In this document: one piece after another, positions 3,001 through 28,000 of the stretch
How positions within the stretch are numbered: the stretch's first letter is position 1
How the letters are laid out: every line of letters starts with the position of its first letter
NCBI RefSeq assembly: GCF_009730915.1
Contig: NC_052475.1
Span: 32,549,016 to 32,613,015 of the forward strand
DNA: 64,000 nucleotides
From: Dioscorea cayenensis subsp. rotundata
Taxonomy: Eukaryota; Streptophyta; Magnoliopsida; Dioscoreales; Dioscoreaceae
Direction of reading: 5' to 3'
Program-made: the position numbers and the translations under genes
The notes under the pieces: generated by a model
Told to the model about the DNA's origin: nothing
Database searches by the model: none
What the model saw: the letters and a program-made list of their open reading frames with translations, nothing else

Positions 3001-3060
3001 TTGAGAAAGCTAAGAAAGCGTTTTAAAACATTTTAGCATTGTCATGCATGTACCGTGTGT

Positions 3061-3222
3061 TCTAACAACAGAGCAAAATAATGCAAACGTCAAAGCTGAT
3101 ACATCAGAACTTAAGGCCAACTAGAGGAAGATTTAATCATTTCTAACAACAAAGCAAAATGATGCAAACGTCAAAGTTGATACATCAGAACTAAAGGCCA
3201 ACTAGAGGAAGATTTAATCATT
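3061..3222. repeat. Tandem duplication, about 81-bp unit, in pseudogene intron
   Basis: Two adjacent near-identical copies, each starting TCTAACAACA and containing GCAAACGTCAAAG and AGAGGAAGATTTAATCA. The homologous intron of the intact copy (near 34.81-34.89 kb) has a single unit, so the duplication arose in this copy only. Confidence 0.85.
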
Positions 3223-4389
3223 TTCATCCAATAGGCAGTTATCATATAGATATCTGACAATAGGCATTGCTTCCATAGAAATGTCTAGAAAATTTTCAGT
3301 TTAAACATACATCAACAATGATCCCCATCCAATATAATAAAATATGGCCACATAAACAAACCTGCAGTGCCATTACTCCAGTTACAAACTGTGTCATCGG
3401 ATGAGCTGTGACAGGAAGAGAATCGATTCCTTTGTACACATGATCTGCATCCAATCCAGAAGCAAAGATTTACTTAATTGTTGTTGATTGATGAAGGGAA
3501 AAAAAGTTTGTAAGAAGAGTTTGTTCAGAAGTATGTCTGAAATGATTAACAAGGTAATCCACTGCAAAGAAAAGGTCCAAAAATTTGAGGAACCGAATTG
3601 CTATTTAGGGATAATTGAAAGCAGTATGTCACATTAAGTTACATTTAATAGAAAGACAATGGCAATAGGTTACTCAGATAAGCTAAATAACCATAAAGGG
3701 ACTCTAATCCGATCAGCAATTTTGATCTGTGAAGGGTTTAAGAAAAACTATGAAATGAAATTGCTAGTTCAGAATATGAATTGGACGATGAAAACAAACT
3801 TTAGTGTTCCAGACTGACTTAAGATTTGTGAAGTAATTGGCAGGATGTCCATGTAAATGAGTTATCTGAATAAGTTAATCCACAGGTACATGAGCAATTT
3901 CAATCAAAGATTCAGAAATTAACAGAAAATTGTGCAATAGTAAAACCTGGAACTGCAGAACGGCTTTGTAGTTCCTTAGATAATGCCACAGCTTGCTCTT
4001 TACTCGGTACCTGTGATGGATAAAAAATAAACTTATGCTCGGAGTCATTACACGCTATTAAAAATGATGCTTATTAGAGATAGAGCTGCTGCAACAAACT
4101 CCAACCGAACAACCATGTATGAACTAGGTATTCAAGATATTTGAAGAATAAGCGCATTGATTACCTTTCCAGTCACAAGGAGCCAAAGAAGGCCCTGAGT
4201 GTCATTAAAAATAACCAGTAACTCCCTTCAGATTCTCATTTAAGGCATAGTTCTCACAGATGGCCCAAAGAACATCATCACAGTTTAACATCATTTAAAA
4301 AGAAAAGCTTTGTTATCTGTGAAATACAAAACACAAGAAGAGAAGTGATCCTATCTACATGATGCATAAGATTAAGTTTCGAAACAAAC

Positions 4390-4795
4390 TGTAATGCACA
4401 CAAGTGGAGGGGAGAGCGGACCCCAAAACACCGGCCTAGTAGGGAAGGTCGCCCCCCACTTATATGCACACATGGACTTCATCTCCTAGCCGATGTGGGA
4501 CTAAATGGGATCTATTACAATACCCCACCGATCAAAGACTGACGCCCCCGTCAGTCCGGGTAATCTGGGGCCGGACTCTGGGACCCACCAGGGTTTTCAC
4601 CCGCTCCGCGCACCCGCCCGAACTGACGTACCGTGCCCCACACCGGCTCTCAACGAAAGCACCAATGTAATGCACACAAGTGGAGGGGAGAGCGGACCCC
4701 AAAAGACCGGCCTAGTAGGAAAAGTTGCCCCCCACTTATATGCACACATGGACTCCATCTCCTAGCCGATTTGGGACTGAAAGGGATCTATTACA
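4390..4795 (-). mobile_element. TRIM-like miniature LTR retrotransposon
   Basis: Two 130-bp direct terminal repeats (4390-4519 and 4666-4795) start TG and end CA, and flank a 146-bp internal region with no coding capacity. The element is bordered by a perfect 5-bp target duplication CAAAC (4385-4389, 4796-4800). Read on the minus strand, the sequence just inside the 5' LTR starts TTGGTGCTTTCGTTGAGAGC, in the primer-binding-site position. The purine-rich GATCGGTGGGGTAT lies just before the 3' LTR. The LTR carries TCCCACATCGGC and a CATATAAGTGG TATA-like box, as in many plant LTRs. The LTRs differ at a few positions, so the insertion is not brand new. It lies five bases inside an intron of the citrate synthase pseudogene. 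Confidence 0.88.
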
Positions 4796-5319
4796 CAAAC
4801 TCCTCCTCTGGATCAACTAACGATGATTCCCACAGCAATCTTGTAATTCCTCTCATTCCACCAAGTACCTACAAATCCCCCAGATAATGATTGATTGGTT
4901 AGAAGTTGCTCCTTAATATCTGAAACCTATGGATGCTTGTAAAACAATCCCTAGCATACATAAATACAAGACAGAACTACGAATATAAAAAATTCGTACC
5001 ATATCAACAGTGATGTTACCAAACTGAACTTTTCCATATTCTGATTTTATTTTCTTCAAGCGCTCCTGTAACATGATAAAGCCAGCAAATGAAAAATTTT
5101 ACAAACAATAATCAAATGCTCGGAATTTCAAGAAACAACACCAAATGAAGACCACTTACAAGGCGAGATCGGAGATTCGACAGTGCCGTGATTCCGCGAA
5201 GAAAACCCATCGTCTATCTGCAAAAGCAATCATGACAACACAAACATAATAAATCAAGCCTGCTGCTGCTGCTGCATATCCAACAAATATTTAGAAGTAA
5301 ATTCCGAGCATTATATACT

Positions 5320-6595
5320 AAAAAAGTTTATTTGGTAACTATAAATTAAATCACAAGTGAAATTACGAATGAGTGAAATGGTGCATTGATTTACTGTAAT
5401 TGAAAATAATGCATTCACAATTCTATTATTGGGTTTTATTTATAAGGGATATAATAATCACGAATGTTGAAATTTAACTTTTTAGCACTAATTATGCAAA
5501 ATAAATTTTATAAAAATTTATTTGATAGAAAACAATTGACCAAATAGATTTCCACCATCCATTCATGTACGGTGGTTAACAGTATTTAACGTGTAATAAC
5601 ACAATAACAACTGATAGTAAATTCTATACAGAACTTTTACGACTATTAATTGTTATATCATATGATTTAATGACCGCAAGACTTAATCAATGCCATCAAA
5701 TGTAAGTATATACCCACTTAATGAATGCTATTAAATGTAAGTATATACCCTGAAAATATGTACTTTTATATTAATTAACCAAATATATCTGTGGGCTCCT
5801 TTCTTTCCACCCGGCCTTTAATTGGGATTGACCGGTTGAAAAGCATGGATCACAAATCAAAATTTAATTTTTTTATATTTCGGATGATTGCGGGGTTCAG
5901 TGACTCTCATGAGGGGCAAGCCCCTAATATTAATTACAGAACAATGTCACTGGGAACCTCCGATTAAGAAACAAGTGTGAATGAGGAAATCGCGAGTAAA
6001 CATGATAAATTTTTATATTTTATTTCAAAGATGCATGCGAATACATGATCATGAGACAAGAATACAAAAAGAAGAAAGCTATTCTCTAAGAGAGCTTAAC
6101 AAGAGATTTTTTAGAAAGAGCTATTTTTTATCATGCTCTTCAAAAATTTATTTTTTTAGTGGCGCTCTTAGCTCCCTATACTAAAAAGTGTGTCGGAAGA
6201 TCCTTTTAGCTTTGTGGATGTAGCTCTCCTCGATTTCTTTTTATGTGGGTTTGTGTCTTGAAAGCATAGCTTAGTCCAAGTCGCGGCCACTCTACATTTA
6301 CGAGTTGCCTCCTTGGCCTCTTTTTGCTTCTTTTTATCACTCGAAGACTTTGGCTCTTTTCGCTTGTAAAATCTCCACTCCTTGACTTGTGAAACTCCCT
6401 CAAGTTTTTTTGGCTTCTGGTGTCTTAAAACTTGAGTTGCATTTGTCGCTTTACATGATGCATTTAGGTCTTAGCTCTTCAATGCTTTTGAGCCTTGACC
6501 ATTTGATTTTAAGTCGTGACCTTTAGCATGGTTAGGTCATTAACTTGATAATTTTGACTTGACTTTAAAATGAACCTCAAACTCATTTTTTTTGA
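5320..6595. other. Inserted AT-rich sequence inside the pseudogene leader intron
   Basis: The intact copy has about 200 bp between its start codon and its leader exon. Here similarity to that intron stops near 5320 (GAGCATTATATACTAA) and resumes near 10757 (CTAAGAAAATGAAAC). No gene is recognised in 5320-6595. A short direct repeat lies at about 5680-5750 (AAATGTAAGTATATACCC twice). Short open frames here have low complexity and no family match. Confidence 0.6.
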
Positions 6596-7032
6596 GACCT
6601 CATAATGAGCTTAGGGAAAATCTTTGCTCAAACTCAACTTTTTTCAATGAGTGTTGACGAGAAAACATTTTTTTCTTCTTTTTTTATGAAAATTTTTTCA
6701 TTCATTTTTTTATTATCCATCATCATTTTTTTCTCTCGTGAAATTTTTCATTTTTTTACTCTTCATTTTCATTTCAAGAAAAGATGTACTTTTTCATTGC
6801 ACCTCTTTTCACTCCAACGAGTATCAAAAAGACCTCCAAGTGAGCTTCAAGAAATCTTTGTTAACTTTTTCTCTTTTTTTATAAGTGTTGATGAGAGATA
6901 TTTTTTTGTGAACTCTTTCATTTTTTTATATTTTTTTATCACTTCAAGAAATTTTTATTCTCCTTTTCATTTCACTTTTTTTACTCTAATGAGTGTCAAA
7001 AGACCTCAAGGTGAGCTTGCAGAAAGGGTTTG
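6595..7032. repeat. Degenerate T-rich tandem repeat
   Basis: Roughly three diverged units, each with GTGTTGATGAGA or GAGTGTCAAAAGACCTC, then a GAGCTT(C/G)CAAGAAA-like segment and long T tracts. A 142-codon open frame across it is rich in Phe and Ser and reflects T-rich composition rather than a gene. Confidence 0.6.
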
Positions 7033-7039
7033 ATTTTTT

Positions 7040-7830
7040 TATGGAAAAATTTCTCTTTTACCCCAAGAGTGTCAAGACTCCAAGGTAGAATTAAAGAAAT
7101 TATATTTCTCGATTACCCCTAGAAAATCGAGACTTCGAGGTGGAATGAGAGAAATTTATAGAAAAATTTCTCGATTACCCCAAGAAGTCAAGACTCCAGG
7201 TGGAATGAGAGAAATTTATAGAAAATTTCTCGATTCTCCGAGAAAGTGAAGACTCCAGGCGGAATGAGAGAAATTTATAGAAAAATTTCTCGATTACCCC
7301 AGAAAAGCCAAGGCTTCGAGGTGGAATGAGAGAAATTTATAGAAAATTTCTCGTTACCCCAAGGAAGTCAAGACTCAGAGGTGGAATGAGAGAAATTTAT
7401 AGAAAATTTCTCGTTACCCACCCAAAGACCCAAGGCTTCAGGTGGAATGAGAGAAATTTATAGAAAATTTCTCGTTCCCCAGGAAGTCAAGACTCAGGTG
7501 GAATGAGAGAAATTTATAGAAAATTTCTCGTTACTCCCAGAAGTCGAAGACTCGAGGTGGAATGAGAGAAATTTCATGAAAAAAATTTCTCGTTACCCCA
7601 AGAAAGTCAAGACTCCAGGTGGAATGAGAGAAATTTCATGAAAAAAATTTCTCGTTACTCCCAAAAGCCAAGGCTTCAGGTGGAATGAGAGAAATTTATA
7701 GAAAATTTCTCGTTACTCCAGAAGTCGAAGACTTGAGGTGGAATGAGAGAAATTTCATAGAAATTCTCGTTCTCAAGAAAAAGCCAAAGGCTTCGTGGTG
7801 GAATGAGAGAAATTTCATAAGATTTTTCCC
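7040..7830. repeat. Hairpin-forming minisatellite, about 13 units of 58-62 bp
   Basis: Each unit reads approximately: AGGTGGAATGAGA, then GAGAAATTT, a 4-6 base loop, AAATTTCTC, then a G/C-richer spacer with CGTTACCCCAAGAAAGTC and AAGACTC. The arms GAGAAATTT and AAATTTCTC are perfect inverted repeats and are the best-conserved part. Spacers vary more, and CAAGGCTTC alternates with CAAGACTCC. This is not CRISPR: the repeats are plant-intergenic and the spacers are near-identical. Confidence 0.9.
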
Positions 7831-7849
7831 ATAGGAGGCCTTACAAAAA

Positions 7850-8290
7850 AATGAAATTACCAAAATACCCCCACTCAAATTCATCCTTTACTTTTTTTCT
7901 CATTTTTTACTCTCTGTTTTTTTTTAACCCATCTTTTCATTTTCCCCATATTTTTTTCTTTTCTTCTCTCATTTTTACTCACCCTCCCATTTTTCCATAT
8001 TTTTTCTCTCTTTTTTCCAACTCACCCTTCCATTTTTCCATATTTTTTTCCTTCTCTCTTTTTTTTAAATTCACCCTTCATCTTTTCCATATCTTTCCTT
8101 CTCTCTCTTTTTTTTAAAATTCACCCCTTCATTTTTTCCATATTTTTTTTTCTCTTTTTTTCTCACCTTTCATCATTTTATTATTTTTCTCTTTTTCTCT
8201 CATTTTTACTCTCCCTTCATTTTTACGTCTTTAATTTCTTTCATCATTTTACCAAAAATGCCCCTCACCAATAAACTCTCCCTCTATTTT
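7850..8290. repeat. Polypyrimidine-rich low-complexity tract
   Basis: Imperfect repeats built on TTCATTTTTCCATATTTTTT and CTCTCTTTTTTT run through the whole segment on the plus strand. There is no coding signal, and the open frame over it is Phe/Ser low complexity. Confidence 0.75.
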
Positions 8291-11636: not shown

Positions 11637-11654
11637 TAATTATATATATAATTA
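11604..11654. repeat. AT microsatellite
   Basis: About 30 bp of TA repeats followed by more AT-rich sequence, immediately left of the MULE target duplication. Confidence 0.9.
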
Positions 11655-11660
11655 AAATAT

Positions 11661-11880
11661 GTGAAAATTGACAAAAACCCTACTAACTTGCTAAATTGCC
11701 AAACAAACCCCATAGTTTTGAATCTCCAAAAACCCCTTCCTTTTCAACTCCATGATTTTTGAAACCCCAAAGTACGTACTTGAGCATTAAAGCTGAGTGT
11801 ATTTTAAAATTTTATGGACGAAAATGCCTTGCACGGGAAGTCGTGGGTGCACCCGTTTCGGTGTGAGAGGAAGTGGGTGG
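11661..11880. repeat. Left terminal inverted repeat of MULE
   Basis: Pairs with 17640-17826 in inverted orientation. Matching stretches include the outer (G)AAAATT, CCAAAAACCC, and GCACGGG..AAGT..GTGGGT.CAC near the inner end. Heavily diverged, with indels. Confidence 0.6.
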
Positions 11881-12559
11881 GTTTTTTTCTTAAGCATTCA
11901 CAAATGCTTGTCTTCTCTCAACTCGCGACTCTAGCTCAACTCGCGTCTCCAGCTCTTCTCTCCCAGCGAACTCTTCCCTTTCCACGGCGTCTCGAAGAAG
12001 AAGTCCCGTCCAAGTATTCGACATTTTCGTCACTGCGATCTAAGGTATTCATTATGGTTTTTTGTTAACTATTCTGTTACGAAGAGACATTTTTCGGTTT
12101 TGGTTTGTGATTTTGTTTTTGTTGGAAGACATTGAAGCTTTCAGAGGGATTAATCGGCTGGGGTTTTGTTAGTCTGCAGGGGAGATGTCTCTGGCTAGGG
12201 TTTTTGCTTTTGTTTTACATTTTTGCTCTATGTATACGATCGAAATGGTTTTCCGATTGTTGTGCTTTTGTGTAATGTTTATAATCTACGTTTACCCTTT
12301 CGATTTGATAGTCAGTTGCGATTGTAAAAATGAGGTCTCCGTTTAAACAATGAGCTACTGCTAAGTTAGTTCGTCTCCGCTTTAATTATTTGTATCTCCG
12401 TTTTAATAGTATCGTCATCGCTTAAAAATGATATCGGTGTTTAAGAACCGAGTGTTTACTGGTTTAACAAATTACATTTCCGCTTAACAATGTGTTGTTA
12501 TTGTCGCGAGCTTGTGATTATGGCGGTCAATCTAGTTAATGGGCGATGCTACTTGACAC

Positions 12560-15500
12560 CCGGTGAGTGGAGACCGTGGTGAATTGAAAGTTCACATGAT
12601 CCCTCGACACTCGGAGATCATCCGAGGACACCGCTCACGAGCATTCTTGAGTTGGAAGTCGATACCAAGAGCGGGTCCTCTCGACTCTCTGTCGAGAGAT
12701 ACGATAACCCGCACTAATAAATTCGGGATCGGGAAAGCATCTCGACTTTTCGAGCCCGCAAGATGTGGCAATCGTTCTCGCTCGCGTTGCGATGGGGAGG
12801 CGATCGTGTTTCGTAAGAAGAAAACACGGTCGACTTTCGAGAGAGGTATTTGCTCGAGACGTCACGAGAGACAGCAGAGACTCCGTCGGAGCACTCTTCA
12901 AAGAACTCGTTGGACGGAGGGAGAAGAGGAGAATTTTGCCAAAACCATCGATGGTGTACCTCCCGGTACAATCCTCTTCCCAAATACCTCCCGCTCGGTT
13001 CCTAAGCGGATCGGGTAATTATGTCGATGATTTACGGAATGGGGCGCTACGGCGTGGGCAAGCGACTTGCAAGTGGCTTTCATGGAGGACATACCACAAG
13101 CCGCTACCCGAGTTCAATCTAGATCGCTGGAAAGAAGACCAACACCGGGTATGTTAAGGGTTGCAGCTGTAGCGCTTAACATCCGGTTTTACTGAGTGAC
13201 CGAGCCGGAAAGAAAGTCCGTTCTGCGAAGATCCCGAGGATCGTCAGCTACGGTGAAAAATACTTTACCGGAAGCAAGCGTACGATAGAGACGAGTTTGT
13301 CATCTCTCGAAGGAAAAGAGGTAATAATTCAAAAATATTTTGTTTAATCGTAGGCGTTAACGTTTAACCATATCATTTACCGCTTAATTTTTATTCATCT
13401 ATCGCTTTAACATTATAACTTACCGCTTAACTTTGTTCAACTACCGCTTAAACTTTTTAGTTTAATGTTTAATTTGTTTGTTCTACTGTTTAACACAATA
13501 GGTTATAACGCTTTAAATATACGAGTTACATGTGTAAATATAGTTTTTAATTGTTTAAACTAAATAATTTCGCTAAGATTGTTTGTTTTACACATGCTAG
13601 TTTCTGAAATGGTTCGCTGAATCGTCGACGAAAGAAGTATTTGTTCTGGCCAACCATCGATTGGGCGATGTTATTGCTCCCGAACCGCTTGCTCAAAGGC
13701 AAGATGAGAGGGCAACCTCTTCCTCGTACTGGACGCCTGCTCTCCCGCTTCGAGCCAAAACGCATCTCGTCGAGGCCGGAGAAGCCCTCCCCACCCCGCC
13801 CGACCGCTGGCTTCCCCGACCGTGTTAGCTCTCGAACGTGGCGCCTCGCCGCCAATAGGCGAGGATGTCACTGCAACTCTCATGCGAGCTTGCGTGATTT
13901 GATGATCGAGTTCCCTCGACATCGCTCGGGTGGAGGTATCGAAGGCTCGGTCACGACCACAATCGACCGCGCCTTCCCTTCAAACAAATGAAGCACCGGG
14001 GACGGATACGCTGCGTCGGAGTTCGACGACGAGGACATCATCGGGGTGGCCCTTCAAAAAGACGGCCTCATTCGAGAAGCTTGCAAAAAGAGGAAAACAA
14101 TAACGCCTCCGTCTCCACCGCGTCGTACCGACGATGAAATAATAGCAGCGACCATCGGCAGCAGCGACCATCGGCGGTACGATGTTGATACGTTGATGAC
14201 ATACGCCCATCACGGTGGAGGAGATCGAAGATGGCGACCGAGTTTGCACGCAGTGGAAAAAGATCGTCGACTCGTTGTTGACGACATCACGACATCGTGC
14301 TGGAACCGGCAGCGACGACATGCAGCGATCAAAGATGGACACAATCCATGAAGAAGAACAACCGGACAACGCTGTGTCTCCCATTGATGCTTCGCTGCCG
14401 TGGAACTCACGGTTGAGAAGGTCGTTGAGTCTATCCTCAACGAGTGAATTCACTGTGGAACCAACGGTCGATCGCGCCGCGATCGGCGCGACACAATCCC
14501 ACAAGAACAAGAAGCATGTAAGGAAGTGTCTCCCGCTGATGCCTTTGCCGTCGTGCCCCCATTAAAGAAAGTCAATAAAAAGTAGAAGAACTTGGAAAGT
14601 CTTCATTCGAAGATACGCTGCTAATCGCTCTCGATAAGTACTGAGCGAGGGAGTTGATAAGGATCTTCCCTCAACCGCCCCTATGGACAAGTAAGTTCGA
14701 AGTTTTTTATGATATTGTTTAAACTGCTTTTAGTTACCATTTAAGTAGGAGTGTTAACGCTTTAAAATTCTGATGCATAACATTTAACTTATAAGTGATA
14801 CCCTTTTAAATATTACCATTACCGCTTAAACATTCAATATAGAATTTAAAGTTTATACTTTAACGCTTAATTTTTATACTTACAACATTGTTTACATGTC
14901 TTTGTTCCGCTCAACCACGATGATCGTCGGTGGAAGAAACGACTCGTCGAGACCACACGGGCCAATCTATTCGACCGCTCGAGGGGAAGGAGATGGTCAG
15001 CGAGCGATGTGATGGGACGCGATCCGTATGTATCTTGCAAAAAGACGATGAGCGTAGTGCCATATCGCTATAAGAGGCGCGCCTCCATCACACGGCCACC
15101 GGGCCTTGTTCATGTCAAAGCAGGCGACGACGCATACGAATCCACGATGGCTATGATTGGAGATGCCGATGCGCAACTTGCATGAAGTGGGCATCGCCAT
15201 CCTTCCGATAACTATGAGTGGCCACTTCCACGTCAGTCGCCCTCGACAATGAAAAACAAGAATACTGAGCATTATTCTTCACGCCAAAGCTGAAGAATAC
15301 GATAAAAACGCGCTAGAAATGGTAAGTGCTTTAATAATTTGTGTTTGTGTAATAGTGTTCGGTAAATAATCGGCATTCTAATATGAACTTGTATATCTCG
15401 GCAGTCGGAACCTATTCGACCTCGTAGACGACATGGAGTTAGGCGAGTCGGCGATCGCAGTACCCGCTTGTTCACGCTAATCGAAGCCCCACGACGTAAA

Positions 15501-15620
15501 AAGGAAGTGTCGATCGCAGCTGCCTATGTCATGCGGTTTATCGAGCGCTACTCGCCGGTGAGAAGCTACGGCTACGCATGACCGACGTCCCCTTATCTCG
15601 CGATTAAGGTATGTTTCCCG
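12560..15620 (+). pseudogene. Ulp1-like protease (DUF1985 + C48) gene carried by the MULE, decayed
   Basis: The block 12560-13330 is GC-rich and translates in shifting frames to a DUF1985-like profile. It includes NYVDDL (about 13016-13033), then in a second frame EWGATAWASDLQVAFMEDI, and at 13204 AGKKVRSAKIPRIVSY followed by GEKYFT. This is the spacing of VDDL...WG...IP+I seen in that family. The middle blocks (13.6-14.6 kb) are hydrophilic and unrecognised. The last block holds ILPITMSGHFHV (about 15200-15235), which fits the HW/HFxV strand of Ulp1 proteases. It also holds AAYVMRFIERY (about 15516-15548), which fits the CGxYVMxFIE helix with the catalytic Cys apparently lost. Stops and frameshifts are throughout. 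Ulp1 enzymes cleave SUMO; the role in MULEs is not known. Family placement rests on motif memory, not a search. Confidence 0.55.
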
Positions 15621-16549
15621 CATACTTAGGGAGGAGGCGTACGGCAGATCACGCCCAGAGGAGTCTTCGCAGCGGGTTCTTAGTCATTCTTTCTATATTT
15701 GTATACACGATTCTTTCTTTAATAATCCGTATTCATTTGTTTAACATACACTTTCGGTGTTTAAGTATATAGTTCATTGTGTAAATATCAACGTAATTGT
15801 TTAAACTCCGCTTTCATCGCGTAAAAACGAACCGTAGGGGAGTGTACGCAAGCGTGGTCATAGTCATCAGATAGGTGTAAATATCATTTTTGTTTCGCTT
15901 TTGAGGTTCTCGTTCTTGTTGGATGATATTGTAGTCCGCAGGGATACATTATCGTAGTGGTTCTGCTTTCATTTTCATTTTCATTATCGGCTAATATCAA
16001 CATTCATTTTAATCAGTATAATGATAACTTTTCGCCTCTTTAACTTTCGTTTCACTGCTTTAAGTTTAGGTTTCTCGCTTTAAATTTAATATTTTTCTGC
16101 TTTAAAATATCCTTATTATTTAATAATATCAATGTAATTACAACAAAAATATACTTAATATTTTCCGCTTAAAATATCCTTATTACTTAATAATCTCTTA
16201 TAGAGTGTAATGTAATGTTCGATTTTTATGTCGCGACGGAGTGGAAACGGCTGGGGAACCGAAAGCAGTATTAATTACGCTGGGGAACCGCAAGCACCAT
16301 CCCGTCAGTACATTTTTAAGCGGATACAAATTTATTTTTAAACGATAAAAATAATAGCTTAAACGGGAGAATAAAATATTTAAAAGCGTAAGAGATATAT
16401 TTAAATATAAAGTTCAATATTTAAACAATAATAAGAAGTATATACATAACGCCTAGCTCGAATGTGATTCATTCCACGATCCGCGATCGCGACCGAAAAC
16501 GCTGGCAATGGCTACTAACGCAATCTCTCGGACCTCTGGACGCCACGAC

Positions 16550-16830
16550 TCGATCCTCTTTCATCTAGGACACCCTAGTGTTGCCTTCTCGTCAAAGTGA
16601 TCGCAAAACGCAGTCACGATTTTCATCCATCGGCACTCGCTATTGTCCCGGTATGGGGAATATAGCTTCCTTTATACGCCATTTTTGAAGTCGAGCTTCC
16701 TTCCACGAAATCACCCGGGTGTTTCTCGCTCTTCAAGAATTTGAAGTCAAAATTCCTTTTGATTGCAAAATTCCTGAGTGCGCCTCGAAATGTTCAACGC
16801 CTTCAAAACATCATGTCAACATCCAACGAC
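16550..16830 (-). pseudogene. MuDR/MURA transposase fragment (DNA-binding domain)
   Basis: The minus strand at 16733-16790 reads LRNFAIKRNFDFKFLKSEK, matching the plant Mutator transposase N-terminal zinc-finger/DNA-binding block (family consensus approximates FxxALRxFAIxxxFDFKxxKS). A shifted continuation toward 16560 has CDHFDEKATLGC, similar to the F..xHTC segment that follows. The catalytic DDE region and SWIM finger are not seen, so only the N-terminal piece survives. It is convergent with the Ulp1-like gene in the same element. Confidence 0.65.
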
Positions 16831-17520
16831 AACACTTCGACTGATCGGATGAGGGAAGGAAGGCACGCCACACCCCTCGAGGCTCGCCACGATGTGGAAA
16901 TGTAGGCGATGCTGGGATTCGAATTCTCGCCAACACTTTTAGTTTTAAACGAACACGATCAATATTTAAACAGAGACACAAAATATTTAAACGATAAACA
17001 TAAATCTTAAACGTTAAAACAAAAAGTTAAATAATAAGTTAATAAGTTAATCGGAGACAATAGTGTTTAAATGGAAACTTGATAAATGTAAACAATGACA
17101 CGGATAATAAACAATAATTAACTTCTACAACTATATAAACATAAAGCGAGAAGAAACTTACAACGAGAAGAACTCGCTTTCGGTGAGGATACGATGCCAC
17201 ATCCTCGCTCTCAACAACAAGATCAACAACGTAACATTTGAAGATGGAGTCGACGTGACACATGCTGCTTTTGGAAGTCAACCTCGCTTTTATATGAGAC
17301 ATACTGCTTTTACGTCCATCGGGTGCTGATAAACTTCACCCTCGACACGGAAATATCGAGACCCCATCGCTCACATATTTCACCTAACACTCGATTCCCC
17401 AAGAAGTCGGGCAGTGAACATTAGCACTGTCCCTCCCCGTCAGATCTAGCAATAGTACAAAAAAACTCTCCATAATTTAATCCAAGAGCTAAAAATTGAA
17501 TACACCAAATGAGAAGAAAG

Positions 17521-17556
17521 AAAAGAAGAAGAAGAAGAAGAAGAAGAAGAAGAAGA
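17521..17556. repeat. GAA microsatellite
   Basis: About eleven AAG/GAA triplets in a row, just inside the right end of the MULE. Confidence 0.95.
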
Positions 17557-17639
17557 ACAAGATATGAGCCTTCTAAACTTTGTTTCGAGAAAAAGCAAAG
17601 CGTGAGGCAAAAAAATCAAAAACTATGATAAAGAAAAGT

Positions 17640-17826
17640 TATGATCGAGGCTCATTTTTTTCCCACCTTTTCGCAGGCAAAAAGGAATTTCATATCGTGG
17701 ACCCACTTCAACTTACCCGTGCGGGGGTTAAAAAGGAATGTAAAATATAGCGGAGTATCCGTGTGCAAAAGTTGGAGGGTTTTTGGGAAGTTTTGAAAAT
17801 TACGATGGGTGAACAGTAATTTTCCC
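17640..17826. repeat. Right terminal inverted repeat of MULE
   Basis: Its reverse complement begins GGGAAAATTACTGTTCACCC, a common plant MULE end, and aligns with the left end at 11661. Confidence 0.6.
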
Positions 17827-17835
17827 TTAAAATAT

Positions 17836-20800
17836 TAATCATTATAATTTATATGAAAAATGCTATTTTTATTTTTCTAAAAATTCTACCTCATATTATT
17901 TAAAATGAATTAAATAAAAATAATAAAATTATTATATTAAATAAATTTGATAGTGAGTCATAGTAAATAATATGGCTAGCCAAACATAAATCCTCAAATA
18001 TTTTTGTTTTTAAACTTTATATATAGATATTGAACTTATCAATATATAATTATCAATATTTAGGATATAAATATAAAATAAAAATAAAATTTAAAAATAC
18101 AATTGCTTTCCTCATAGAAATCTCTAAAAATAAAAAACATCAGATCTCATGATGGTTGAAGTCTTTCGATCAATTATCTCCAAGTTTACGTTTTATTTTT
18201 CATTGATAGGGATTTATCATTTTTCTTTTCCTGCTTTGTTTTTATATCTAATATATATTTTTTTATTTTGTGTGATTATTTGTTATGTAAAAGTATTTAT
18301 ATTTGTTGAATGATTGTTAGATATTTGTTAAATATTTGTTTCATTATGAAAATTATTGTGAAAAAATGTTATATACTTGTGAGTAATTGTTATGAAAATT
18401 TTAATTATTCATTAGATTATTTGTTGAATAATTGTTGTATTTAATAATCAAATTATATATGAATTTGTTTAAAGTTGTTTTTTAATTGCAGTATTTGTTA
18501 ATTTAGTGTTTAACTAATCGCTAATTATGTAGATATGATAAATGTTTTGCACATAAACCAAATTTTTTTTAGATAGGTATATATTTTATATTTTTAAAAT
18601 ATTGATTATTATACTCTCTTGTTTGAATTAATAAAATTATTTAATATTTAAAAAAAACAAGTTAAAATTTAAATTCAGCACACGTGGACGTTATGGCCAT
18701 ATGTACATAATCATTACTCACTCCTTCAGATATATATCTTCATCCGTGATTTGAATTCTCATTATAAATAAAAAATTTTTATTGAAGACTTAAATACTAA
18801 TATACCCCTTCATCGTTAGTGAAAAAAAAAAACATGAGAACACATCCAACTCATTCATTAAACATGAGAGATGAACTTCCGAAAGTACAAATAAATGATA
18901 AAAAAAACCCATAAGATAACATTATCGGAAGTCAATTTATAATTTTATATATGATAAAAGAAATACACCATAAATGTAAATAATATACTCTATAGATAGC
19001 ATAAATCAAAATTTCATTAAAAACATGAATCACATTGATGATGATGGTGATGATGCTGATTGATGGTAGGTGCATGAAGTAGGTTAGTGTATCGGTATAT
19101 ATATGCGTGGTGAAATTAAGCGCAATAATTGGGCATGAGCTGGCAATAAATAAAAAGACCACATACCTGTAGACAACTTGGGCTATAAAAAACAGACTAC
19201 CTGCACACGTGAGACATGACAGAGACAAAGGGCTGCTTGTCTCTACTGCTTCAGGTTGTTGTCACACTATTGAGTTTTTAACTTTTGAGACCTTTTCCCT
19301 ACTTTAATCTTGTCTCCCACTGGTCTATGTATATATGATGAGTGAGGGATAACACTTTGAACCTACATTTGAAAAACTTGATTTGGCATTTGTTTGGATT
19401 CTCAACTTTATCATCTTCTTATTGAACTAAAGGAAGGGGGTGATGTTTGAAACTATTGGCGTTTGCTTTGGAGTTCGGACGATTGCTGAATGTTGATGAA
19501 CACACTACCATTCTTTTTAGCCTGAATTGTTCAACAGAATGTGTTGAAATTGATCTATCAAAACATTTAAAATGTGGTTGTCGACAGTGTGGATTAGTAG
19601 TGACGACAGAGTCATCAGGGGCAAAAATGCACGCACCCAAGATCTTCACACCATATTTCTTTTTCTTTTAACTTGCAGAAGTAATATCTTCTTTCTGTTT
19701 AAGAGGTGTTCACGAGAGAAATTTAGTGGAGAAGTCATTAGACTGAACTGACTTACTCCCACTTTAATATTTTTTCTATTTAATGCGAAATTTTATTAGT
19801 CAACTTTTTCTCAATTTTCTCCGCTCTAGAATTTTTTTCACCTTTTTGCAAAATAAAGCACGAAATTATTTGAAATGATATTAACTTTATTTTTTCCCAT
19901 TTTAGAATTTTTTTTTCTTTTTTTGCAAAATGATCATCGGAATTATTGAAAGTAATATTAACTATAATTTCTCTCACTTTAATTTTTTTTTCACTTTTTA
20001 CAAAATAGACACAGTAAATTTTTTTCTTCATAAATTAACCAAAGTCCCATGCATATTCACATCATCTTAAAAAAACTTGAACAAATTATTCAACACAAAA
20101 AAGAAAGTTTCACAGATTAATGTGTGTAGCGCAAGAAAATTAAATATACAGGAGGTTGAAATTACAAGTTAATATACATTGTTTTTAATTTAAGGCAATC
20201 CAAAGGATTAGTTATTGTGAATAGACAATAACACTCACATATACATTCATAGCCAGAAGCCACATAGAAGAGAAAATGGCCATTAGATATAGTATTTAGT
20301 TTATGTTATTATATAATTTTGAATATATTTGCACTTTGAATTTTTTTTTTTTTGCCCCCATCTATGATTTATGACTCTGTCACTGTTCACAACGAAGGAG
20401 AATTTTGTTTAAAAACCAATAAAACAAAAGAATTATAAATTCATGAAAGTTGATGAAACCCTATATTCACAAATTCAAATTACAGCACAACCAAATAATC
20501 AAATTATGGTCACTTAAACAATGCATTTATAATGCACAAAATGATCTCAAATTCATTATCTTTATATAATAACATTATTTTCCCCCAACACTGCACAATA
20601 TTTGACCAAAAAAGAATGCCAGCGTTGGGTATCACCTAAGGCTTCATTCATGCCTCTCTGTCTCGGAGTTGTAGTGGTGCTGCTTCTCAACTACAGCTGC
20701 CTTTAATTTATTCATCTGTGATTTGTGCCTCTTCCTCCTATATTGTTTTAGTTGAAAATAACTCCTATAATTTCGCTCCTCCAACATCATCTCCAACGAG

Positions 20801-20870
20801 TACTTTCAGAGAGAGCAACAACTTCTATAGATATACTAGGAAGAGAAGAAGGGAGCAGCTTTATGTGCCT
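17836..20870. other. AT-rich intergenic sequence, no gene recognised
   Basis: Long AT-rich tracts with only short open frames. Two overlapping 74-76 codon frames on opposite strands at 19419-19671 have no recognisable family. The 20720-20870 frame is interrupted by the hAT insertion and is not recognised either. A T-rich tandem repeat lies at 19790-20010. Confidence 0.6.
19790..20010. repeat. T-rich tandem repeat, about 3 units of 80-90 bp
   Basis: Each unit has (T)AGAATTTTTTT or TTTAATTTTTTTTT, then CACTTTTTGCAAAAT or similar, then GAAATTATTTGAA and ATATTAACT-type sequence. The units are diverged. Confidence 0.6.
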
Positions 20871-22009
20871 CTTCCTCCTAGAGGTGGGCACGGGCCGTCC
20901 GGTAACCCGGCCCGGAACCGGCCCGCCGGGTCATTGACCCGGAGGGCCGGTTCGTTGACCCGTAACTGAGCCCGTACTGTGAGACGGGCCGGTTACAGGG
21001 TCGAGCTTCTTCCAACCCGTGGCCCTGGCGGGTTGGCCCGCCGGTTCAACCGCCGGGCCCGGCCCCTAACTAAAAACCGGGTTGCAACCCGGCGGGTTGC
21101 AACCGAGTTCCCCAACCCGCCGAGTCAACTCGGCGGGTTGGGCCCGTTGAAGCCCAACTGGGCTTCAACGGCTATGAATTCAAAAAGAATTCATAGCCGT
21201 TGGCTATTTTTTTTTAATTTCAATTTTTAAATTTTCAGAAATTTAATTTTTTTTTTTTTAAATTCTTATAAATTTCTATATATCCTCCATCCCCACTATT
21301 ATTTACTTTTTTTACTAATTATTACTCTTTCCCAACCCTCTACTCTCATGCTCTCTTAATCTCCTACTTTCATTCTCTCATAATCTCACTCTCTCGAGGG
21401 CTTATTATTTGGATTCTTGGAGTTTAATTATCGAGCTAATATTACAAGTTGGAATCTTGGATACTTGGAGTGGTTCAACTTTGGTTTTTCTCTTATTTTT
21501 TTAAGATTTTCGGAAGTTCTTAATTAACAAGGTTGGTGATGATTTATTTATTTTTATGTTTAGTTATAGTTTCCTAGGCTTGTCTTAATTTAATCATGCA
21601 AGTATTAGTTGTATTCTTTATATGTTTATTTTTAATTATTAGTTTAGACTTGTGGACATATTAAAAATGCATGAAATTATTATTTGTAGTTTTTGACCTT
21701 TGGTTGATTTTTATAAATATTTGGACGAAATGTATTATTATAGACATGAATAAAAAGTATTTGTTGAAAATTGTTGATATTTATTTTAATTATTATTTTA
21801 GACTTGTGGACGTATATAAAATGCATGAAATTATTATTTGTAGTTTCTATAGAGTTGTTTTTAAATAATTGTATGAATGATTTTTTGTAGACTTGAACAA
21901 AAATTATTATTTATATTCTTCATATTTATTTTTTATTATTAGAATGGATATGTGTTTTTTTAAAAAGTACATGAAATTAGTATTTCAGTTTTTGTAGACT
22001 TTGGTTTTC

Positions 22010-23340
22010 TTTTAATATTTGCATGAAATTATTTTTTGTAGAATTGAATGATGCATTTATGATATTAATTTTTTATTATTAGTTTAGAGTTGTGTTTTTA
22101 AAAAATGCATGAATGTATTTTATGGACTTGTATGAAATTATTTTTTTAACTCATGGGAGTTTTTAAAAAGTAGACTTGGTTTTCTTTAATATTTGCATGA
22201 AATTATTTTTTTGTGAATGAATGTTCTTTGCATTTACGATATTTATTTTTATTATTCGTTTAGAGTTGTCGTTTTTTTTTTTTAAAATGCATGAATTTAT
22301 TTTTTACGGACTTCTATGAAATTATTTTTTAAAGCTTGTGGGAGTTTTAAAAAAGTACATGAAATTAATATTTCTAGTTTTTGTAGACTTGGTTTTTTTA
22401 ATATTTGCATGAAATTATTTTTTTGTAGAATTGAATGATTTTTTCTGCATTTATGATATTAATTTTTTTATTATTAGTTTAGAGTTGTGGTTTTTTAAAA
22501 ATGCATGAATGTATTTTTTTATGAACTGATGTAAATTATTTTTTAACTTGTGGGAGTTTTAAAAAGTAGACTTGGTTTTCTTTAATATTTGCATGAAATT
22601 ATTTTTGTGAATGAATCGTTCTTTGCATTTATGATATTAATTTTTTTATTATTAGTTTTAGAGTTGTGTTTTTTTAAAAATGCATGAATGTATTTTTTTA
22701 TGGACTTGTTTGAAATTATTTTTACCTGCATGGTAGTTTTTAAAAAGTAGACTTGGTTTTCTTTTAATATTTGCATGAAATTATTTTTGTGAATGAATTT
22801 TTGTTCTTTGCATTTATGATATTAATTTTTATTATTAGTTTAGAGTTGTGTTTTTTTAAAAAAAATGTATGAATGTATTTTTTATGTATTTGTATGAAAT
22901 TATTTTTACCTTGTGGGAGTTTTTAAAAAGTAGACTTGGTTTTCTTTAATATTTGCATGAAAATTATTTTTTGTGAATGATGTTCTTTGCATTTATGATA
23001 TTAATTTTTTTATTATTAGTTTAGAGTTGTGGTTTTTTAAAAATGCATGAGATGTGTTTTATGGACTTGATGTAAAATTATTTTTTTAACTTGTGGGTGT
23101 TTTTAAAAAGTACATAAAATTAATATTTCAGTTTTTGTAGACTTGGTTTTTAATATTTGCATGGAATTATTTTTTTGTAGAATTGAATGATGCATTTATG
23201 ATATTAATTTTTATTACTAGTTTAGAGTTGTGGTTTTTAAAAAATGCATGAATGTATTTTTATGTATTTGTATGAAATTATTTTTTAAACTTGTGGGAGT
23301 TTTAAAAAGTACATGAAATTAATATTTAGTTTTTGTAGAC
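22010..23340. repeat. Tandem array inside hAT, about seven units of 180-200 bp
   Basis: Units start at about 22017, 22191, 22406, 22588, 22770, 22953 and 23155. Each holds TTTGCATGAAATTATTTTT, TGCATTTATGATATTAATTT, TTATTAGTTTAGAGTTGTG, AAAAATGCATGAATGTATTT and CTTGTGGGAGTTTTAAAAAG. Related single units occur upstream from 21650. There is no coding potential. Confidence 0.88.
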
Positions 23341-23684
23341 TTGGATTTGCATGAATGTATTTTTTTATTGATTTGCATGAAATTATTATGTGTAATTTTT
23401 TGTATACTTATAAATATTTGCATGAAATTATTTTTGTAGACTTGAATGAAATTATTTGTAGTATTCTTAGATATTTAATTTCATTATTAGTTTTAGACTT
23501 AGTGTATGCATTTTTAATATTTGCATAAAATTATTTTTTGTTGAGCTTGAATGAAATTATTTGTAATATTATTAGATATTTAATTCAATTATTAGTTTTA
23601 GACTTGTTTTGGTAAATACTTGTTAGATATTATTTGTTGTAAAACTTGAATGAAATTAGTGGTTGTATTCTTAGATATTAAAAC

Positions 23685-24360
23685 ATGGCTTCACAGGGTG
23701 GATCCTCTCGAGGAAAAAGCGTTGTTGGATCGGGCTTCACTCCCACACCACCTACTCAAGAAAGCAATCCATTTTAAGATTTTGAGAGCCCAATAGAAGT
23801 CAACGGCATTGTGGATGTCAATGAAATTGTTGTTGATACTAGGAGTCAACTTGTTGAATTATATGATAGCTATTGTATTAGATATAGTCATATAGTTCCC
23901 ACGGGGTTGTCTGACGGAGGCGATAGGGACAATCTAGTAGTGGTGGAGGAGAATCATTCACGTGAGACAAGCAAAGAAGAAACCAAGGGGATCACAATAT
24001 ACTGAGCTCGACTTGTACTTAAACACGACTTTCCGGGTTCTCGGGAAGAAATCAACACGAGACTGACTTTCAACGTCCCTCGACTGGTGGCAAGGTAATG
24101 AAAATCAGTACCCCCATTCTTTCGCTCAATGGTAAAGGATATTTTTGCATGTCCTATGTCTGACGTAGCTTACGAGCGAACTTTTAGCGCAGTGGAAACA
24201 TGTTGGATTCGACCACGTTCGCAATTGACCCCATAAAAATATTGAAATTCAAGTTTGCACGGATGACTGGAAGCGTGCTCAAGTTCGCCCGACAAGAAGC
24301 GGATGAAGAAAGTCCGGATGCTAGTGATTTCTTCTACACGAGATAACAGTGATGAGCACA
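23685..24360 (+). pseudogene. hAT transposase remnant (N-terminus fused to C-terminal dimerisation domain)
   Basis: ATG at 23685 opens MASQGGSSRGKSVVGSGF and hits a stop after about 30 codons. Further on LVELYDSYCIRYSH is seen. At 24000-24290 it reads ELDLYLNTTFRVL, then WWQGNENQYPHSFAQWVKDI and FACPMSDVAYERTFSAVE. This is the hAT C-terminal dimerisation motif (LDxYL...WW...N..YP.L...A.DIL.IP.S.V..E..FS). The BED zinc finger and most of the RNase H-like catalytic core are absent, and at least two frame breaks exist. The two ends are joined by an internal deletion of several hundred codons. Confidence 0.85.
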
Positions 24361-25050
24361 CCCTGGCTCGGCGATCATTTGAGTCCCGACCAGACCTAGA
24401 TGGTACTGGAATTAAGTAAGTGGGTGACGATTATAATGTGTAATAGAACTCACGTGAGCTTTGATTCCTCTTACACCTGGGAGGATCACGTAAAGCAACT
24501 TAATTCGGCATGTAAAACGATTAAGTCCAAGTCATTTATTTCCAAATTTAATGTAATTTCGATTTTTAGTGAAATTTAGTGTAATCGATTGAGACGTCTC
24601 TTATTACTTGGAAACTTGTGGTCTTCATTTTTTGGGGTCTTAATTAATTCATTTTTTTATATGAAATTTTTCTGAATTTTTTTCTTGAATTTTTCACAAA
24701 TTTTTCTCATGAATTTTTTCTGAATTTTTCTGTAATTTCTTTAAATTTTTATTTAAAAAAATTGAGGTGGGCCACGACCAGCCCGCCGGGCCCCAGATGC
24801 GGGCCAACCCCGGGCAACCCGGCGGGTTGGCCCGCCGAGTTATCCCGGCCCGCTGGGCTAACTTGGGAGCCGGGCCGGTTCGGGCTCGGCTTCATGTGAC
24901 CCGGACCCGGCGGGTCCGACGGGCCAACCCGGCCCGCCGGGTTCTAGACCCAGCCGGGCCGGGTCCGGGTCAGTGGGCCGGTGAACCGGACCCGGCGGGT
25001 CGGGCCCGTCGGGCCCGGTTACCCGGCCCGTGCCCACCTCTACTTCCTCC

Positions 25051-28000
25051 TATTATTATGCAGTACTAGGAGTACACCTTTGAATACCATCAAGTATCCT
25101 TGTACTTATCCAATTTTAATTAAGTTCTTATATATATATATATATATATATTATATTATGAGGATGCATTCTCTATCAACATTCGTAAATTTGAAATTTA
25201 TGAACGGTGCTATCAACCATTGGATTTTGATCCAACGGTTAAACACTATTTCATAAACAATATTACTGTGTTTATAAATAGTAGAATAATAAAAAATGAG
25301 ATATACCATAATTTAATCTACGAACGTCCACAGATAACATTTTCTATATATATATGTGTATGTGTGGTGGGTTTTAGCCCAGTATTTGGGCTAGAAAAAA
25401 TAAGTTGGGCTTTGAAAATAAAAAGAAAAAATAAAGCTATGTTAATTAATGGAATACCAAGGGTAAAAGGGTTATTTTATGTGAATGCCCCATTTGACTA
25501 AAAGTCTCATTCTTGGGATGATGAGAGATGAGAGGAAAGGAGGCTAGGGCAAGACAGTGAGAAAGAAATTGGAAGAGAAGAAGAAAGAGAGTGTGAAAAG
25601 AAAGGGCTCAAGGAGAAGGAGATTAGGGCATACAAGGCAACAAGATCCTCGGCAATCGGTGCTGGACCTCATCACATTTGTGAGAAGGGCATCCTTGCTA
25701 GTAAGACATCTAATCTTTTGGGTTGATTCCCATTTTATCTTTTCTTGGAGTTCTTATTTCCATCTTATGTGAAGATGATGATGAATGTGTGTTACTATAT
25801 TCTCTTGTTGAACTCTCATGTCTTTGAGCTTGTATACCTCTAGTTAGTTAGAAAGATCATTGTAAACTCCATTAATTGATATAGTGGAAGCATTGTAAGA
25901 GATTCTAAGGTGTCCCATGATTTTTCCCTCGATTTGAAGGGTGCCCACGTTAAAATTAGTGTCTTGTATTGTATGTTTGCATTTTTCGTCGTCTTTACCT
26001 ATTTCTAAATTACAAAGAGGGGTTGTAATTGCATCATTGAGGGTTGCATTTGACCTAGGAGGGTCCTAAGCATGTATATAAACCATTTGGAGTTATTTTG
26101 TAGTCATATGGGGTCCACCACATAGAGGTTGGTATAGAAATTTCCGAGAGATTGAACTAGGCCATACGGGTCCATACGGCCATATGGGAGTCGGCATGAA
26201 TTTTTTAAAAAGTTTTCACTAAGTCATGCGGTCGGCATTGAGGCCGTATATATAAATAATAACTGCTATATTAAATTATTACAGTAATTTTTTTACAATA
26301 ACTTTCACATAATTTTTCCACTGTTTCAGCACAAGTAACCTACAAAATATATATATATATATATATCAGCACTGATCTTCATGGCTGCTTAATTTCACTT
26401 TCAGAAGAAAGTTTCTCCGATCATTCATGAATTTCAAGGGAGATGATGTCAACATGAACCATTATTACTTGGAAGGCACACTGTACGTCCTACCTTAATT
26501 GCCATATATGTTAGGCCAGGGCCAGGTCCAGGTCCTGATGCATGTGCCTGATCATATATATCTTCAAGTGCAATGTTTAATTTGCTCTCAAGAGTGTACT
26601 AATGCTCAAGCTTAATTTTGGTGGATGTATATATATTATATATATATGGGTTCGTTCACACTGCAAATCTGGCAAACCATAGAGGAACAGCATGCAGCTG
26701 TAGCAAAGCTCAAGGAAAAGCCAATAATAATTATGAGCTCTCAAGGAAATGAAAACAGCGCAAAATTATTCAAGGCTGTGAACAAGAACAAGAAGAAAGT
26801 TGATGCATGATGATGATGATGATTACCACCATGACGACGATGACGGCGATGATGATGATGATGACGACAATGATTAGTGTTCGTGTGAGGAGGAGACTTT
26901 AGCTTTGATTCATATTATATATATACATATATATATGTGTACTAATATCTGCGCTGCTTCTTGAAATAATAATTGGAATAAGTATTATAAATGGATTTGG
27001 TCAAGTTTTTTTAAAAAAAATATATAGTTAAATTTGTTTTCTTTCTTTTAGTATGATTTGTTTAGTAATTGCATGTGCTTGTTTATAAGTTATTGCTCTC
27101 ATATGTACTAATTAAAAAAAGTGTATTAGCTACCATGGCAACAACCTAAAGGTTAAATTAATTACTTAATTTTTGTGCGAGAGGTTGAGAATTAGACTCC
27201 TCATAATGTATGACTTTTAATAGTAAAAAGTATGTATATTTAAGATGATTTGTCTATATAATTAAAAAAATATACTTTAATACGGTAATGCATAATGAGT
27301 GAAAATTTAGAAAATATATAAAATAACCTCCTAACAAAAATTAATTATTCCACACTTCTGGCTTTTACATTTAAATTTCTTTGATATAAAAATATAAATA
27401 TAACAAACAAAAAACAAAGTATACTTATCATAGTTCTAGTCATCTAAAAGAGTAAATAATAAGTTGTTTCTAACATTAGAATCTTTTATTCAAAAATATT
27501 AAATTGTTGATTTTTTTAAAATAAATCTTAATCGTGTTTAAAGTGATCATAATTATTTTAACCAAAAAAACCCTGAAATAATTAAGGGACATGCGTGAAG
27601 TTAATGTTTTGTATACTCTCACTTTAGATTAATGGAGTTTGTATGGGGTCCAAACTCCCAAAAAAATAATTTTTCTATTTATGATTTGAACTTTTTTGGC
27701 ACCTTTCACCTCCTTGAAAAGATATGAAATTAGTGTTATAAATCATCCGGATTAAGCATTGGCTTTAGCCGTGATCATAAAATTTTATTTATCTTAGATG
27801 GCATTTGTGCAAAGGTTTAAATTGATCTTTAAAATATTAACGAAGATCTGTATAAATTATTACAAAATTATAGATTTTGATGTGTAATAAATAAATACCC
27901 TTTTGGCTCATAAACAACTAATATCCAATTAAAAGCTAAATATATGAGAAAAGGAAGTAATATTCTTTATTAAAAAAAAGTAATATTCTTTAATCTCATT

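Follow-up and report, generated by a model that had tools for sequence, protein, structure and literature searches.

What kind of feature is a short, oriented motif that recurs in the non-coding gaps of a plant transposable element and changes strand where the coding strand changes? The question is raised by a Mutator-like element (MULE) in a 64,000-nucleotide stretch of the Dioscorea cayenensis subsp. rotundata genome (contig NC_052475.1, positions 32,549,016 to 32,613,015; hereafter the window, whose own numbering is used unless a locus is named). The original prediction for this DNA held that no feature class explained the series. VANC-type arrays of Arabidopsis do match it (PMC5735166); here and below, what is said of a cited paper refers to the part of it that was available. 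We consider it probable that the arrays are target sites for the element's own VANC/KIU (anti-silencing) protein, a known kind of system, because the element combines a gene of the VANC/KIU type with arrays of the matching type.

Motif arrays, their pitch and their strand switch

Counts were made with a strict motif, YGYTT(T)AA, a pattern chosen after the arrays had been seen. Within the non-coding gaps of the element it occurs 37 times on the gene-sense strand versus three times on the opposite strand: the plus-strand gene's side (1,614 bp) has 28 plus and 2 minus matches and the transposase side (384 bp) has 1 plus and 9 minus, a strand bias with p = 1.9e-6 in a Fisher test. The coding-like blocks (3,358 bp) hold one plus match and no minus match, the outer ends of the element (751 bp) one minus match and no plus match, and the remaining 57,834 bp of the window 23 plus and 19 minus matches. 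When the whole window was scanned for chains (a minimum of three units at intervals of 18-24 bp, one absent unit being tolerated), 29 units were recovered in four plus and two minus chains, every one of them within the element (11661-17826); local dinucleotide shuffling of the element (200 times) gave a mean of 0.00 chained units and a maximum of 0. It had been claimed that the motif recurs dozens of times in the gaps and is nearly absent from the coding-like blocks and from sequence outside the element; the observation is confirmed, with every chain lying inside the element.

The pitch is tighter than the 20-35 bp originally given. Neighbouring units stand mostly 19-22 bp apart, with a best period of 20.75 bp in the family majority, where pair distances group at 19-22, 39-44 and 59-65 bp apart from lone outliers (e.g. 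8 and 28). The strand flip, placed beforehand at about 16.3 kb, falls between the final plus unit of the series at 16166 and the initial minus unit at 16322, with one stray plus match (17064) on the minus side. GTTTAAAC, which had also been put forward as a strand-aware motif, is a palindrome and therefore uninformative on strand. A series had been expected in every gap and is present in most; the gap 15320-15405 (predicted intron 4) holds one unit only, close to its donor. In per-gap shuffles the signal is weak for 15320-15400 (p = 0.41 with the strict motif, 0.57 with a loose one) and for 15660-15900 (p = 0.028 and 0.14, respectively).

The same arrangement recurs in other copies. A search across the 584-Mb genome, with the intron-2 array as query, yielded 873 first-look candidates; 40 were scored and are 93-100% identical to that array (the window itself counted). 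Twenty copies were fetched and 14 of them aligned with the window, giving 15 rows, after exclusion of six with internal deletions or rearrangement (L020, L023, L029, L031, L033 and L035). All 15 rows, which are mutually related and hence non-independent, switch strand, with 21-31 plus and 2-3 minus matches on one side and 0-1 plus and 7-10 minus matches on the other.

Genes of the element and the quality of their sequence

By its predicted domain make-up, DUF1985/plant mobile domain (PMD) plus a Ulp1-like exon, the plus-strand gene is of the VANC/KIU type (Table 1). The frame of copy L056 matches the PMD at 55.2 bits, and that of the relative L059 matches DUF1985 at 38.5 bits, above the cut-off; copy L030 gives weak Pfam matches in this exon, and the window's own broken frames in 12520..13320 give no Pfam match. 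Genes of this type are expected to have a variable region with tandem peptide motifs, and repeated peptide segments like those of the window's variable exon can be seen by eye in the L056 and L059 frames. The Ulp1-like assignment made at the outset is upheld by a chain of homology, the window's exon being 51% identical to that of L056 and the latter 45% identical to that of L060, which scores 22.5 bits for C48 (cut-off 20.7); the family's own exon (L056 and L021) has no direct Pfam match. That the element is a MULE was likewise confirmed, DBD_Tnp_Mut reaching 26.3 bits in copy L021 (cut-off 25) and 19.5 bits, below the cut-off, in the window. About 1.6 kb of transposase core, present in L059 (L059:4574-6154), is absent from the window's family (16685-16701), and for this reason the family looks like a non-autonomous, amplified derivative.

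Introns were predicted from donor-like GT sites at about 12045, 13321, 14691 and 15322 (plus) and 17161 (minus). The donors at 12045, 13321 and 14691 are kept in 15 of 15 rows, that at 15322 is changed in a few, and the minus-strand donor is kept in 14 and deleted in L016; all 15 rows retain the intron-2 acceptor, and the remaining acceptors are blurred. The arrays sit in these predicted introns and in the stretch between the two convergent genes, where the putative coding ends flank three arrays (15738-15805, 16056-16173 and 16316-16427) and where the strand switch falls. The intron-like gaps originally described are therefore only in part predicted introns: the arrays at 15738-15805 and 16056-16173 are not introns between coding exons because they lie beyond the putative stop near 15683.

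The broken frames call for caution of another kind, as patches of scrambled sequence, copy-specific and centred on CAG/CTG, abound in the coding-like blocks. In a comparison of 13 copies and the window with L056 (L032 also being excluded), the difference at 121 CAG/CTG sites is 0.65 at the centre and 0.05 ten bases off; the corresponding values for CG and TTTAA are 0.25 and 0.02. Across 16 sequences, CAG/CTG reaches 0.56-0.87 of its expected frequency and CG 1.15-1.41. The patches are found in 11661-17826 and in the aligned copies, and also in the window bins 4001-8000 and 12001-28000. Their probable cause is long-read consensus error at CHG-methylated cytosines, in repeats beyond the reach of polishing. 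Such errors would also blur CAG acceptors, and on this explanation frameshifts, broken frames and block divergence in repeats become suspect and are poor evidence of age or decay. Little of this touches the AT-rich arrays.

Table 1. Features of the element, with predicted exons and motif arrays in window coordinates
Feature	Coordinates	Strand	Remarks
Mutator-like element	11661..17826	.	6,166 bp; ends match those of aligned copies
Motif array 1	12340..12488	+	within predicted first (5'-UTR) intron, about 12045-12507
VANC/KIU-type exon (plant mobile domain / DUF1985)	12520..13320	+	304-aa open frame in copy L056
Motif array 2	13341..13577	+	predicted intron 13321-13600; most regular array
Variable exon	13601..14690	+	repeated peptide segments; 53-nt repeat at 14338 and 14490
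Motif array 3	14716..14871	+	sparse; predicted intron beginning ~14691
Ulp1-like (C48) exon	14871..15321	+	homology covers 14871-15290
Last exon of plus-strand gene	15405..15683	+	putative stop near 15683, by eye
Motif array 4	15738..15805	+	3' of putative stop
Motif array 5	16056..16173	+	final plus-strand units, between convergent genes
Motif array 6	16316..16427	-	first minus-strand units, 3' of transposase remnant
Transposase remnant	16446..16924	-	fused C-terminal piece and MuDR DNA-binding domain; core missing
Motif array 7	16945..17022	-	predicted transposase intron, about 16925-17161

The element is flanked by a 9-bp target-site duplication, TTAAAATAT (11652-11660 and 17827-17835). At 15878-15880 the window copy is missing ~97 bp of majority sequence, which L016, aligning there unbroken, seemingly also lacks. 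CTGGGGAACCG occurs twice at 16250-16290, in the sole GC-richer stretch between the convergent genes, at the strand switch. Four of the 20 copies (L020, L023, L031 and L035) have a common alternative, shorter transposase side, their match being interrupted at 16593 and picking up again at 17417, and retain the plus-strand arrays.

Motif classes in related elements

Fourteen distinct DUF1985 loci from the same genome were examined (L049 and L057 overlap). L046-L055 are the best 10 of 150 scored, out of 455 first-look candidates in the whole genome, and L056-L060 were hand-picked as a family copy, as a known hit or for long open frames. GTTTAA-type arrays are present in five of the 14 (L048, L052, L053, L056 and L059), an RCTTAA array in one (L060) and TGTGTA arrays, in gene sense, in three (L047, L049 and L055), and all three motif classes share a 20-21-bp pitch. 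In a DUF1985 tree that is midpoint-rooted and rests partly on fragmented frames, the classes occupy separate clades, with L060 beside the GTTTAA clade (local support 0.967); motif class tracks protein clade. L060, which belongs to a more distant family, carries one motif in the non-coding parts of both its genes and shows the same strand switch as the 15 rows, as had been anticipated for related copies; the transposase side of L059 is too sparse for a switch to have been counted.

Ten MULE loci picked by their transposase domain contain no array of the motif, with 0-4 matches per strand and, among all ten, a single pair 18-24 bp apart (in L039). A de novo series test (60 shuffles per locus) returned simple repeats (GAARAA, TATAYA) as the top series in L056 and L057, and the motif evidence for these two loci rests on the other tests.

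Several further features of these loci were recorded. L041, unlike the other nine MULE controls, contains at about 2915-3285 a stretch of directional repeats that are rich in GC (YGGGAG / AGCGGC). Two DUF1985 clades, one with L046, L050 and L054 and one with L051 and L058, are without a ~20-bp motif series, and L058 carries a 27-bp repeat in three copies (623-697). The MULE load of the whole genome is very high: a search with the MULE transposase domain gave 3,312 first-look candidates, of which 150 were scored.

Readings of the arrays and comparison with known systems

That the arrays are targets of the element's own VANC/KIU protein is suggested by the array statistics and the strand switch, and by the presence of a DUF1985/PMD frame and a Ulp1-like exon within one element. 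A single motif is common to the non-coding parts of both genes, the array is missing from the transposase-selected loci, and motif class follows clade at a common pitch. The analogy extends to the described traits of VANC21 and VANC6, which agree in location, orientation, density, tandem repeats and the use of differing motifs (PMC5735166).

Other results weigh against this reading. A motif class that follows clade is equally expected from plain descent; five of the 14 DUF1985 loci (L046, L050, L051, L054 and L058) have no array, only ~3.4 kb of sequence having been examined for four of them; and one MULE control, L041, has a ~20-bp series, GC-rich in its case. L057, of the TGTGTA class, has no C48 match within its 7 kb, nor has L058 within the same length, so that arrays are not strictly tied to Ulp1. 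The DUF1985 match of L056 scores 35.4 bits in the genome search and 33.4 in hmmscan, below the cut-off of 35.1, and a comparison of the DUF1985 frame with PDB sequences gave two matches at E = 1.9, which are meaningless.

Among the causes suggested at the outset, a diverged tandem repeat and protein-binding sites have both gained support, and a splicing signal has become less likely because arrays also stand between genes. Taken alone, a tandem repeat would mean a neutral minisatellite, in which a ~21-bp unit was duplicated through the introns with no binding protein involved, and Tandem Repeats Finder does report diverged arrays of period 20-22 and 43; descent alone would also yield the agreement between class and clade. 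We nevertheless regard this as unlikely. In 39 majority units the core, fixed by construction, is kept, whereas the other half of the unit (+8 to +15) is near background (0.03-0.21 bits) and positions -4 to -1 are moderately biased (0.33-0.61 bits); between families, core columns agree better than others in introns 1 and 2 (0.88-0.93 versus 0.76-0.86), with a small difference in intron 3 (0.83 versus 0.77), and non-core columns lie near the level of shuffled sequence, with the close relative L053 as the exception, all with the qualification that units were selected by their core and that cores anchor the alignments, which biases the contrast upwards. Differing motifs at one pitch and in the same places, in both genes and between them, also speak against neutral duplication. 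Gene-sense orientation, a sense strand richer in T (0.41) than in A (0.29) in the array regions, and a last unit some 25-30 bases ahead of the acceptor in introns 1 and 2 would suit a signal at the RNA level, such as U-rich elements or arrays of branch-point-like sequences (TTAAC, CTAAG) that secure splicing. Yet the three arrays from 15738 to 16427 lie past the putative coding ends (where untranslated introns are possible), intron 4 has its one unit near the donor, and the MULE controls are without an array, all of which makes such a signal quite improbable.

Directional arrays would fit many DNA-binding proteins, and since the element encodes a MuDR DNA-binding domain, the sites might serve, in an enhancer-like manner, a transposase or a host factor instead of the VANC/KIU protein. 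We give this very little credence: the motif is missing from the element ends, the expected place for transposase sites; the loci selected by transposase domain have no array; and for a host factor, a need for different motifs in sister families would be hard to explain. Promoter or polyadenylation signals were rejected, as the outer ends are nearly motif-free and a series of 37 would be unexpected, and so was a coding repeat, as the units contain TAA. Introner-like creation of introns was also rejected because the array sequences have little in common beyond the unit; window and L059 align at 0.79 in intron 2 (shuffled mean 0.74, maximum 0.78) and at 0.83 in the DUF1985 exon.

If the arrays are VANC/KIU targets, the protein of an intact family member would bind YGYTTAAY sites in trans. 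Sites two helical turns apart would present the same DNA face through introns and the intergenic stretch, and the pitch suggests that neighbouring protein molecules would line up on that face. Binding would strip silencing marks, presumably with loss of methylation, also from core-less copies such as that in the window, and the arrays would expand and turn over as tandem repeats with core and pitch retained. Their orientation probably tracks transcription, because plant introns would need a U-rich sense strand, a role to which the T-rich strand of the arrays is suited. More tentatively, what is conserved may be the pitch of two turns, with letters varying by clade: VANC/KIU molecules might assemble side by side on a single DNA face, specificity coming from the register and not from any one site, and the arrays might hold their transcript-sense orientation by doubling as U-rich intron filler required for splicing, a possibility we rate as doubtful. 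Were this pitch-register version true, the DNA of any DUF1985 element would suffice for reading its targets. If the target-site reading is right, one plant genome holds three classes of anti-silencing target (GTTTAA, RCTTAA and TGTGTA) on a ~20-bp lattice, these classes occur beside DUF1985 clades that have no visible array, and targets can be called from DNA alone.

VANDAL21 of Arabidopsis thaliana, with its protein VANC21, resembles the window's element in pairing a MULE with a DUF1985 gene and in having dense tandem motif arrays of one orientation in introns and intergenic sequence that are rare in exons and elsewhere (PMC5735166). VANC21 occupies the non-coding parts of VANDAL21 and binds YAGTATTAY, is found where motifs are many, dense and in the same orientation, and has its motifs in fast-turnover tandem repeats (PMC5735166); its elements lose methylation when VANC is expressed (PMC5735166, PMC10398659). 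Binding has been shown for VANC21 and is proposed for the protein of the window's family, and the two motifs differ; a resemblance of YGYTTAAY/TGTGTA to YAGTATTAY, noted by eye, was set aside as too short to weigh. VANC6, of VANDAL6/8, is a related protein with its own motif, AGTTGTCC/AGTTGTAC (PMC5735166), in parallel to the TGTGTA and RCTTAA classes, although its letters differ from those in the window. A search for a VANC21 structure led to a meeting report that mentions an unpublished one.

The name KIU (Kaonashi) is given to VANC genes that carry a Ulp1 domain, and a similar action is ascribed to them (PMC13317346). KIU shares with the window's element a Ulp1-carrying gene make-up, and it reportedly recognises motifs in the non-coding parts of related elements (PMC13317346, citing Sasaki et al. 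2022). A captured Ulp1/C48 domain also links the window's element with MULEs of grapevine, melon and rice, for which the available part of PMC13317346 mentions no motif array. A strict pitch, a transcription-linked switch and three classes in one genome were not met in the literature searched, outside which the most relevant paper lies, and the available part of PMC5735166 mentions neither a strict pitch nor a strand switch, nor a Ulp1 domain. Set beside VANDAL21, the window's element carries a Ulp1-like exon in addition, keeps strictly to a 20-21-bp pitch and switches strand between its convergent genes; its lattice of two helical turns and the link of orientation to transcription may be new detail.

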